A stretch of DNA of 64,000 nucleotides, from assembly GCA_036403155.1 (NCBI GenBank), contig DASWRM010000076.1, positions 1 to 64,000 of the forward strand, given 5' to 3'. The notes beneath the pieces are model-generated. The model ran no database searches. It was not told the origin of the DNA and saw only the letters and a program-made list of their open reading frames with translations. Position 1 is the first letter of the stretch, and each line of letters opens with the position of its first letter. The stretch is from Gaiellales bacterium (lineage in GTDB: Bacteria > Actinomycetota > Thermoleophilia > Gaiellales > JAICJC01). The position numbers and the translations under genes were made by a program. Shown in pieces: positions 28,357-30,709 of the stretch.

Positions 28357-28839
28357 TCAGCCGGCCGGCCACGCGGCGCGCACCTTCTCGAGCGTCCGCG
28401 AGAGGTGCTCCGGCATCACGCGCGTGTCGGCCAGCACGGGCATGAAGTTCGTGTCGCCGTTCCATCTCGGCACGACGTGCAGGTGGAGGTGCCCCTCGAC
28501 GCCCGCACCGGCCACCCGGCCCAGGTTCATGCCGCAGTTGTGCCCGTGCGGCTCCATGGCGCGGGCGAGCGCCGCGATCCCGTCGGCCATCAGCTGCCAC
28601 ATCTCCGACCGCTCGTCTGCGTCCAGCTCGCCTGGCGTCGCCAGATGCCGGTAGGGCGCGACCATCAGGTGGCCGTTCGCGTACGGGTACAGGTTCAGCA
28701 CGACGAACGCCCTCTCGCCACGGTGCACGATCAGCGCGTCGTCGTCGGACTGTCCCGGCTTCTCACAGAAGATGCAGGCGTCGCCGCCGCCCGACTCGAT
28801 GTACTCCAGGCGCCACGGCGCCCACAGCCGCTCGGCCAT
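28357..28839 (-). CDS. HIT-family hydrolase (AP4A phosphorylase-like)
   Basis: A 160-residue histidine-triad protein. The catalytic triad is in EGHLHLHVVPRWNGD (H-x-H-x-H), with the zinc-type CIFCEKP near residue 22 and the NLYPYANGHLMVAPYRH block. Actinobacterial members of this type cleave diadenosine tetraphosphate. Its start overlaps the corA stop by one base (TGATG), so both are expressed together. Confidence 0.9.
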   Translation of the reverse strand: MAERLWAPWRLEYIESGGGDACIFCEKPGQSDDDALIVHRGERAFVVLNLYPYANGHLMVAPYRHLATPGELDADERSEMWQLMADGIAALARAMEPHGHNCGMNLGRVAGAGVEGHLHLHVVPRWNGDTNFMPVLADTRVMPEHLSRTLEKVRAAWPAG

Positions 28840-29837
28840 CAGATCCAGCGCTTCAGGCGGAAGTACCCGAGCATGATGGCCGCGATCGCGATCATGCCGA
28901 TCACGACGTCATAGAACCCGTGCGCCGCACCCCGGAACGGGATGTGCGAGAAGTTCATCCCGTAGATGCCCGAGATCAGCGTCAGCGGCAGCATGATCAC
29001 GCTGAACACGGTCAGGACGCGAAGGATGTCGTTCTGCTTGTGCGCGATCACCGTCTCGTTCGTCTGCTCGAGCGCCTCGACGACCTCCTTGTAGTTGTCG
29101 AGCTGGTCCCAGATGCGCTCGGACGAGTCGACGATGTCGTCGAAGTAGACCTCGAGATCCTCGGACAGGTACCGGGTGCGGGAGCGCTCCAGCAGCCGCA
29201 GCGTCGAACGCTCCGGCTTGATGATCTTGCGGTACGCGATGATCTCCTGCTTCACGTTGGAGATGTCGCGCGCCACGTCCTCGCTGCGCTCCTCCCAGAT
29301 CGCATTCTGGAGCCGGTCGAGCTTGAACCCGATCTTGTCCAGGATCGGGAAGCAGTAGTCGAAGGACTCGGACAGGATCTCGTAGAGCAGGTAGCCCGAG
29401 CCCTTCGAGAAGTACTCCTCGCGCAGCTCCTCGCTGTTCGACAGCCGGGTGAACAGCCGGCCGACCGGCTTCAGCGGGTGGTTCGGGAGCGTGATCACGT
29501 AGTCCTGGCCGACGAAGACGTTCAGCTCCGCGGCGTTCAGGCGTCCGATCGCCTTGTCGAAGCGCGGCAGGTGCAGCACCATGAACAGGTACTCGTCGTA
29601 CTCGTCGATCTTCGGCCGCTGCCGCGTCGAGAGCACGTCCTCGAGGTCGAGCTCGTGGAAGTCGAAGTGCTCGCCCAGGTAGGCCGTCTCGATGGCCGTG
29701 GGCGACTCGATGTTCAGCCAGCGGACGCCGGCGAACTCGAGCTCAGCAACCTGCGGCTCGGTCCGTGCGACGTCCTGCCGCTGCGCGGAGCGCGGCCGCC
29801 TGCGGACTGTCCTCGGGATCCGGCGCAGGTTCGGCAT
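28839..29837 (-). CDS. corA: CorA-family magnesium/divalent cation transporter
   Basis: A 332-residue CorA homologue: a cytoplasmic alpha/beta domain with a long helix (residues about 1-265), then two C-terminal transmembrane helices with the YGMNF selectivity motif between them and the basic tail RLKRWI. It takes up Mg2+ (or Co2+/Ni2+) as a pentamer. ATG 29837 is the only standard start compatible with full length; it has no Shine-Dalgarno sequence and is about 35 bases downstream of the likely transcript start. It lies inside a separate 40-codon ORF that begins at the leaderless start, which suggests that corA translation is subordinate to that ORF. The first 25 residues are very arginine-rich. 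Confidence 0.92.
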   Translation of the reverse strand: MPNLRRIPRTVRRRPRSAQRQDVARTEPQVAELEFAGVRWLNIESPTAIETAYLGEHFDFHELDLEDVLSTRQRPKIDEYDEYLFMVLHLPRFDKAIGRLNAAELNVFVGQDYVITLPNHPLKPVGRLFTRLSNSEELREEYFSKGSGYLLYEILSESFDYCFPILDKIGFKLDRLQNAIWEERSEDVARDISNVKQEIIAYRKIIKPERSTLRLLERSRTRYLSEDLEVYFDDIVDSSERIWDQLDNYKEVVEALEQTNETVIAHKQNDILRVLTVFSVIMLPLTLISGIYGMNFSHIPFRGAAHGFYDVVIGMIAIAAIMLGYFRLKRWI

Positions 29838-29865
29838 CGGGCATCACTGTCGTCGTCACGGGCAT
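29743..29865 (-). CDS. candidate 40-codon regulatory ORF upstream of and overlapping corA
   Basis: On the minus strand TACACT (plus 29872-29877) is followed after 6 bases by ATG 29865, the geometry of the leaderless starts in this window. The frame runs 40 codons in a different frame from corA. Residues 9-21 read PDAEPAPDPEDSP, dense in Asp, Glu and Pro, and the corA ATG (29837) lies under codons 10-11. Acidic/proline nascent peptides are known to destabilise ribosomes at low Mg2+ (MgtL of E. coli and Salmonella). A sensor role is inference; alternatively the segment could be joined to corA by frameshifting, or be untranslated. Confidence 0.45.
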   Translation of the reverse strand: MPVTTTVMPDAEPAPDPEDSPQAAALRAAAGRRTDRAAGC

Positions 29866-29871
29866 GGGGCA

Positions 29872-29877
29872 AGTGTA
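29872..29877 (-). promoter_or_regulatory. -10 box of the corA transcription unit
   Basis: TACACT on the minus strand, 6 bases before the ATG of the upstream ORF and about 34 bases before the corA ATG. It is the only clear TANNNT box in the 134 bp between corA and the divergent LOG gene on this strand; the LOG gene has its own TAGTGT box at 29958-29963 on the plus strand. Confidence 0.55.
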
Positions 29878-29971: not shown

Positions 29972-30709
29972 ATGGCAGAGCAGTCCACGAGGCGCGCGGG
30001 CACCGCCGACGAGCACCTCCTGCAGCGTCAGGACGCCACGTTCCTGCACACGGATCCATGGCGGATCCACCGCATCACCGCGGAGTTCGTGACGGGGTTC
30101 GACCGGCTCGCGGAGGTGGGGCTCGCCGTCGCGGTGTTCGGCTCGGCGCGCACGCCGCCCGACCATCCGATGTACGGCGCCGCCCGCGAGACGGCGGCCG
30201 CGCTCGTCAAGGCCGGCTTCGGCGTGATCACCGGCGGCGGGCCCGGGATCATGGAGGCCGCGAACCGGGGGGCATCGGAGGCCGGCGGCGTCTCGATCGG
30301 CTGCAACATCGAGCTCCCGCACGAGCAGCACGAGAACAGCTTCGCGACCCTGTCGCTCGAGTTCCGGTACTTCTTCGTGCGAAAGACGATGTTCGTCAAG
30401 TACTCGGAGGCGTTCGTCGTCTTCCCCGGCGGCTTCGGCACGCTCGACGAGCTGTTCGAGGCGATCACGCTCGTGCAGACGGGAAAGATCCACCGCTTCC
30501 CCGTCGTGCTGTACGGCGCCTCCTACTGGAGCGGCTTGCTGGCGTGGCTGCGCGAGCACGTCGAGGACGCCGGGAACATCACCGCAGACGAGCTGGAGCT
30601 GGCGCAGATCGCCGATTCGCCTCAGGAGGTGGCTCGCATCGTCGCCGACTGCACGAGCGGGCGGTGCGAGCACGACTACCACCCGGCGCCCGCCGCGCAG
30701 CCGGTCTAG
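29972..30709 (+). CDS. LOG-family protein (TIGR00730), putative nucleotide phosphoribohydrolase
   Basis: A 245-residue Rossmann-type protein. The family motifs VITGGGPGIMEAANRGA and VVFPGGFGTLDELFEAIT (PGGxGTxxE) are intact. LOG proteins cleave cytokinin riboside monophosphates or other nucleoside monophosphates to base and ribose phosphate; in many bacteria the real substrate is unknown. ATG 29972 was chosen because it is 8 bases behind TAGTGT; the frame is open further upstream. Its stop overlaps the stop of the convergent DUF3137 gene by 4 bases. Confidence 0.9.
   Translation: MAEQSTRRAGTADEHLLQRQDATFLHTDPWRIHRITAEFVTGFDRLAEVGLAVAVFGSARTPPDHPMYGAARETAAALVKAGFGVITGGGPGIMEAANRGASEAGGVSIGCNIELPHEQHENSFATLSLEFRYFFVRKTMFVKYSEAFVVFPGGFGTLDELFEAITLVQTGKIHRFPVVLYGASYWSGLLAWLREHVEDAGNITADELELAQIADSPQEVARIVADCTSGRCEHDYHPAPAAQPV

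Follow-up and report, generated by a model that had tools for sequence, protein, structure and literature searches.

The window analysed here, a stretch of 64,000 nucleotides (nt) from a Gaiellales bacterium of the class Thermoleophilia, carries on its minus strand corA, the gene of a CorA-type Mg2+ channel, and a 40-codon upstream open reading frame (uORF) that runs across the corA start codon in a different frame. The uORF recurs at corA throughout the class, whose bacteria live in soil and water, and we put the probability at about 0.58 that it is a Mg2+-sensing leader, from which ribosomes would drop off next to the corA start. That it exists and is under selection across the class is nearly certain from the comparison of relatives. 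The same comparison establishes its conservation, coding selection, frame, stop and rare codon, and its presence in a related form before a second gene, of the CNNM/CorC family. An initial annotation, made from the letters of the window, had already read it as a possible Mg2+ sensor; the conserved and coding-selected frame, the leaderless-type start and the related module before the CNNM gene favour that proposal, while the Mg2+ step itself is one that we infer.

An out-of-frame uORF is conserved at corA across Thermoleophilia

The sample comprised 154 corA loci of the class, of which the 144 that are non-identical around the start were used for the counts. Nearly everywhere among them the same out-of-frame reading frame spans the corA start. 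The initial annotation had made its proposal depend chiefly on whether the corA upstream regions of relatives keep this frame relation, and they do: a start codon lying 5–10 nt after a TAnnnT-type box, followed by a frame open to the corA start, occurs at 103 of the 144 loci in the uORF frame and at 0 and 1 in the remaining two. With wider spacing rules 116 loci have both box and start, and the uORF is visible by eye in most of the other 28. The boxes seen are TAGAAT, TACACT, TAACCT, TAGACT and TACAAT. They are predicted to be promoter-like, and their distance to the start codon peaks sharply at 7 nt, the value in 61 of the 116 loci, as would be expected for leaderless transcripts. The uORF begins 19–58 nt upstream of corA (73 nt in one locus), has a median length of 37 codons and is present in several families of the class. 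A chance reading frame in GC-rich DNA is ruled out because frame relation, promoter spacing of the start and early closure all recur among the 144 loci, and a frameshifted or misassembled CorA N-terminus because relatives keep both frames. In the CorA relatives sampled from other classes of the phylum (40–44% identity, AT-rich genomes) the leaders are ordinary and AT-rich, and no such uORF was seen.

The uORF is closed early within corA

The uORF ends at most 36 codons from the corA start in 138 of the 144 loci, whereas 18.7 would be expected if corA were recoded synonymously according to its own codon usage; as a control, the same frame elsewhere in corA gene bodies closes that early at 15% of positions. 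The T of the stop codon is supplied by GCT in 74 loci and by CCT in 45, GCT accounting for 2.1% of Ala codons. In the overlap, taking all loci, 21% of the corA codons end in A or T, compared with 8% just past the uORF stop and 5% in the body of the gene.

The position of the stop, 30–100 nt inside corA, makes reinitiation after normal termination unlikely and fits better with drop-off near the corA start. The initial annotation had suggested that translating ribosomes either cover the corA start or re-initiate on corA. The first part is in keeping with a uORF that runs over this start; the second, if it is taken to follow normal termination, is disfavoured by the same stop.

The leader peptide is under selection

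Upstream of corA the uORF shows the substitution pattern of a coding sequence. Over the last 30 nt ahead of corA, comparison of sister genomes gives 100, 94 and 149 changes at uORF codon positions 1, 2 and 3, respectively (149 of 343 at position 3, p = 1.2e-4), and among the changed codons of sister pairs 65 of 197 are synonymous in the uORF frame compared with 46 of 393 in the other two (Fisher p = 1.5e-9). M....DDPLST/DAEPAP is the peptide met most often (corA starts at the slash). The uORF frame has the motif [DE][DE]P[LFP][SRI] at 77 of the 144 loci (0 and 1 for the alternative frames), and 88% of the uORFs, against 0 and 20% of the other frames, have at least three Asp or Glu residues in a 10-residue window close to the N-terminus. 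The Pro codon of the motif takes all four third bases among 69 loci chosen for the motif, a choice that biases the first two positions.

This variation bears on whether the conserved block might act as a DNA operator or RNA element close to the start instead of encoding a peptide. The hexamer AGTACC does recur before both corA and the CNNM gene, with an unusually fixed T or A; however, it is the third positions of uORF codons that vary (CCN, where every base occurs) and the distances of the block to the −10 box and to corA vary, and we consider an element of this kind very improbable. No structure beyond composition was found in the corA leader (mean folding z of −0.06 over the loci and −0.15 in the window), and no relevant match was obtained in Rfam (release 15, in which the inclusion of the gammaproteobacterial corA motif of PMC6429828 was not checked), the one hit being a chance match inside corA below the gathering score. 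On this lack of structure and of a relevant Rfam match an RNA switch was rejected.

A rare codon follows the acidic–proline run

Where [DE][DE]P falls among the last 14 uORF codons, as it does at 85 loci, the codon two places beyond the proline ends in A or T without exception: it is AGT in 66, AGA in 15, ATA in 2, CGT in 1 and CCA in 1. In corA bodies AGT, AGA and ATA make up 0.7%, 0.2% and 0.2% of their respective synonymous sets. The first base of the rare codon lies 7 nt ahead of corA in 77 loci. In the 8 loci where this distance differs the codon is still AGT, which ties it to the uORF and not to the corA start. Judging from the known footprint size, a ribosome whose A site holds this codon would extend over the corA start.

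A near-invariant rare codon could also serve programmed +1 frameshifting, by which ribosomes would pass from the uORF into the corA frame and produce an N-terminally extended CorA. The gene is in the +1 frame of the uORF, CTC AGT is similar to established +1 sites in which the A-site codon is slow, and the unshifted frame has a selected stop. Against this, corA keeps a start codon of its own, only ATG (127) or GTG (17), a count biased by the picking rule, which required ATG, GTG or TTG; the codon preceding the rare codon varies and would re-pair poorly; and an in-frame TAG lies between the rare codon and the corA start in 2 of the 85 loci (L195 and L219). Nor is any frameshift needed in the CNNM uORFs described below, where the rare codon is followed by an in-frame stop at the gene start. 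Frameshifting is therefore regarded as quite unlikely. In the same two loci the usual corA start now opens a short reading frame, MQGL, whose TAG is at, or 3 nt before, a new corA ATG, possibly a stop–restart variant.

A related module precedes a CNNM/CorC-family gene

A first search with GAYGANCCNCTCAGTNC against 81 genomes of the order gave 27 matches, comprising 25 corA uORFs, one match inside a gene and one (L252) before a CNNM/CorC-type gene. In orthologues of the latter gene, identified by protein similarity, a TATACT-type box is followed by a short uORF encoding D-[DE]-x-P-P-S(AGT)-T. The acidic-Pro-Ser module follows a −10 box in 29 of the 50 CNNM loci fetched by protein similarity, and the Ser codon is AGT in 27 of these 29. 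A separate pattern search, with AGT included by design, returned 29 matches in 101 genomes, of which 28 precede CNNM genes and the 29th has no CNNM match on its short flank; these loci (L333–L361) were left out of the codon statistics, the 27 of 29 being counted on the homology-fetched loci. The module is also found in a distant family (L363).

The two uORFs differ in where they end. The stop of the CNNM uORF is placed on the gene start, typically overlapping it as GTGA or ATGA, whereas that of the corA uORF lies well past the start. In the genome of the window the CNNM uORF encodes MSDEPPSTTSA and its TGA overlaps the CNNM ATG (ATGA). The CNNM protein scores under the NCBIfam cut-offs for PaeA and CorC, and we infer a role in export. 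Because a related acidic-Pro-AGT module precedes this second cation-homeostasis gene in the same organisms, the link of the corA uORF to Mg2+ gains independent support, and the corA uORF looks like part of a two-gene Mg2+ response. A broader reading, which we place slightly short of even odds, is that a single nascent-peptide sensor, made of the acidic–proline run and a rare AGT-type codon, operates across the class and controls the importer CorA and a CNNM/CorC-type exporter in opposite directions, with the sign set only by the place where the uORF ends.

The 3′ part of many CNNM uORFs (L296, L281, L300 and similar), just before the CNNM start, reads CGCCCC...GGGGCG, possibly a hairpin around that start.

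The corA locus of the window

The features of the locus are listed in Table 1. The uORF product is MPVTTTVMPDAEPAPDPEDSPQAAALRAAAGRRTDRAAGC, read from the ATG at 29865 to the TGA at 29745–29743 of the minus strand. Re-reading of the sequence bore out the initial annotation in its particulars: TACACT at 29877–29872 is followed after 6 bases by the ATG of the 40-codon frame, with PDAEPAPDPEDSP as residues 9–21, and the corA ATG (29837–29835) lies beneath codons 10–11 in a different frame and has no Shine-Dalgarno sequence. This corA start is well supported since alignments with CorA relatives begin at residue 1, where an M[PA][NS]LP-type sequence is conserved. The HIT-domain gene downstream is likely to be in the same operon as corA.

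Table 1. Features at the corA locus of the window (positions are those of the whole stretch).
Feature	Position	Strand	Basis or remark
Predicted −10 box TACACT	29872–29877	−	Leaderless spacing: 6 nt (TGCCCC), then the uORF ATG
Leader uORF, 40 codons and TGA, out of frame across the corA start	29743–29865	−	Position, frame and stop kept in relatives; substitutions before corA are of coding type
Acidic/proline run PDAEPAPDPEDSP, uORF codons 9–21	29803–29841	−	Sequence
Ultra-rare uORF codon AGT after P-E-D	29806–29808	−	AGT is 0.7% of Ser codons in corA bodies
Rare corA codons AGG and ACA	29811–29813 (AGG), 29808–29810 (ACA)	−	Kept together with AGT in 4 of 4 family members
corA	28839–29837	−	TIGR00383 (CorA) above cut-off, PF01544; start supported by relatives
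uORF stop TGA, formed with the rare corA Ala codon GCT (corA codon 31)	29743–29747	−	Sequence
HIT-domain gene	28357–28839	−	Start overlaps the corA stop (TGATG)
Divergent LOG/lysine decarboxylase-like gene	29972–30709	+	Context only

The genome of the window encodes a second, distant CorA-family protein, and no similar leader was seen by eye at its gene (L089). It gave no match to MgtE, so that there is no MgtE leader for comparison. In one family of the class an S-adenosylmethionine (SAM) riboswitch (RF00162) adjoins corA (L249 279–373, minus strand; L251 1188–1274, plus strand), and is apparently read away from corA by a divergent gene.

A proposed model for Mg2+ sensing by ribosome drop-off

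The arrangement of the uORF suggests a model that would combine a transcription start at its 5′ end with pausing, drop-off, dependence on Mg2+ and reinitiation. The corA mRNA would be leaderless, beginning at or next to the uORF start codon, as would be possible if a 5′ AUG or GUG is enough here too, as it is for leaderless translation in mycobacteria (PMC9094748). Ribosomes would load at this end and, reading the uORF in its own frame, would move over the corA start. Those that stay on would pass the corA start and be released at the stop within corA, and for this reason corA would be little translated; a ribosome paused at the rare codon, usually 7 nt before corA, would itself cover the start. 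At low Mg2+ ribosomes would pause on the acidic/proline run and the rare codon and fall apart, in the manner of the intrinsic ribosome destabilisation (IRD) of MgtL; N-terminal Asp and Glu residues are known to abort translation (PMC9718836). Drop-off, which can be followed by reinitiation (PMC8934632), would either clear the corA start or release a subunit that re-initiates a few bases downstream, and the Mg2+ channel would be made. With the stop placed as in the CNNM uORF the sign would be reversed, so that a finished uORF at high Mg2+ would feed the exporter and drop-off at low Mg2+ would starve it. The predicted output, importer on and exporter off at low Mg2+, would be physiologically sensible.

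Several observations weigh against this model. The initial annotation had treated the acidic/proline run as a meaningful trait, and for acidity this is upheld, if modestly: over all loci the acidic fraction of the overlap is 0.112, compared with 0.079 under synonymous recoding of corA. Proline in the overlap is lower than under the same recoding (0.205 against 0.285), so that these prolines, largely dictated by the CorA frame, are mostly a by-product of the N-terminus of CorA itself, and proline richness of the overlap is ruled out as a selected trait. Synonymous divergence at 4-fold sites is only slightly reduced, at 0.274 in the overlap and 0.318 in the body, a weak overlap-wide constraint that is not taken as support. 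The acidic signal is not universal: early acidic residues are scarce in one clade (f5, MPxVPC...), which by eye also has a possible corA Shine-Dalgarno sequence. In most relatives the sensor-like part, DDPL and the rare codon, is just upstream of the corA start and outside the overlap, whereas the family of the window has no DDPL-AGT there and instead has a PDPED-AGT run at and past the start, kept in 4 of 4 members (a small sample); to re-initiate in this family, a ribosome would have to move backward. Some families (f3) lack the CNNM module. Finally, AGT and AGC should share one tRNA, and slow decoding of AGT is only assumed.

The clades with few acidic residues, such as f5, and the extent to which CorA dictates the amino acids of the overlap would sit well with a uORF that only tunes corA, either by occluding its start at all Mg2+ levels or by reporting general translation capacity, the acidic residues having no sensing role. 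Tuning of this sort would account for the fixed frame, the leaderless-type start and the selected stop, but it leaves unexplained both the conserved DDP with its rare codon and the recurrence of a related module at another gene of cation homeostasis, where the stop is placed differently, and we think it unlikely. Selection on the peptide and the rare codon is likewise left unexplained if low Mg2+ merely switches the route of initiation, favouring free subunits and giving less 70S initiation on the uORF and more 30S initiation on corA, with little part for the peptide. Leaderless mRNAs are indeed bound mostly by 70S ribosomes (PMC9031893), and dissociation of 70S ribosomes at low Mg2+ is reported (PMC10046523); corA, however, has no Shine-Dalgarno sequence in most loci, and such a switch appears improbable.

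Should drop-off from the leader prove to be the sensing step, Mg2+ sensing through ribosome stability would not be an enterobacterial peculiarity but would have a second form in Actinomycetota, on leaderless mRNAs and without an RNA switch. An importer and a presumed exporter would be tied together by one rule, the near-invariant rare codon would gain a reason, and the simple geometry of drop-off and reinitiation would lend itself to reporter tests. Automatic annotation can overlook overlapping leaderless uORFs, and these may be strongly selected across a whole class.

Comparison with known leader peptides

In the open-access literature no description of an overlapping leader of corA or CNNM genes in Thermoleophilia was found. 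A close parallel in working is MgtL of Salmonella and E. coli, where destabilisation of the ribosome at low Mg2+ switches on mgtA (PMC11552253, PMC12421838). Like MgtL and CorL, the corA uORF is a short reading frame directly upstream of a Mg2+ transporter gene and, like MgtL, it has N-terminal acidic and proline residues, although these are weak in f5. MgtL differs in its long structured leader, its separate uORF and its control by Rho, whereas the corA uORF is of leaderless type and overlaps the transporter start out of frame, with a fixed rare codon and no RNA structure found. The corA loci showed no long leader folded into alternative hairpins; there the uORF begins within the short distance of corA given above and folding z is about 0. 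CorL, also of Salmonella and E. coli, is a uORF before corA whose translation is inversely related to corA expression (PMC11552253), but it has a Shine-Dalgarno start in a structured leader, Rho termination and few reported acidic or proline residues; it belongs to another phylum, and no resemblance was noted. In MgtQ of Salmonella, again a short uORF before a Mg2+ transporter gene, the acidic residues Asp2 and Glu5 reduce translation of the uORF itself and increase that of mgtB (PMC8092293). MgtQ, however, works with alternative stem-loops in the intergenic region, does not overlap its gene and is not leaderless.

For the CNNM gene the nearest counterparts are CorC-domain genes of Salmonella and E. 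coli, which are induced by high Mg2+ (PMC12421838). Among them corC (YbeX) contains or begins with an IRD sequence, and the leader YoaL overlaps the upstream region of mgpA and is needed for full translation of MgpA (PMC12421838). The IRD of corC lies in the N-terminus of the protein itself, whereas in Thermoleophilia there is a separate uORF with its stop overlapping the CNNM start. Leaderless attenuators are themselves familiar in Actinomycetota, where the polycysteine short reading frames of mycobacteria lie before genes (as described in PMC9094748 and PMC9031893). These sense cysteine through cysteine codons and have no acidic/proline run and no link to Mg2+, and a run of cysteine codons is absent from the corA uORF peptides examined. 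The Thermoleophilia uORF, for which no homology to MgtL, CorL or MgtQ was found, would appear to share with these enterobacterial leaders the same kind of working.
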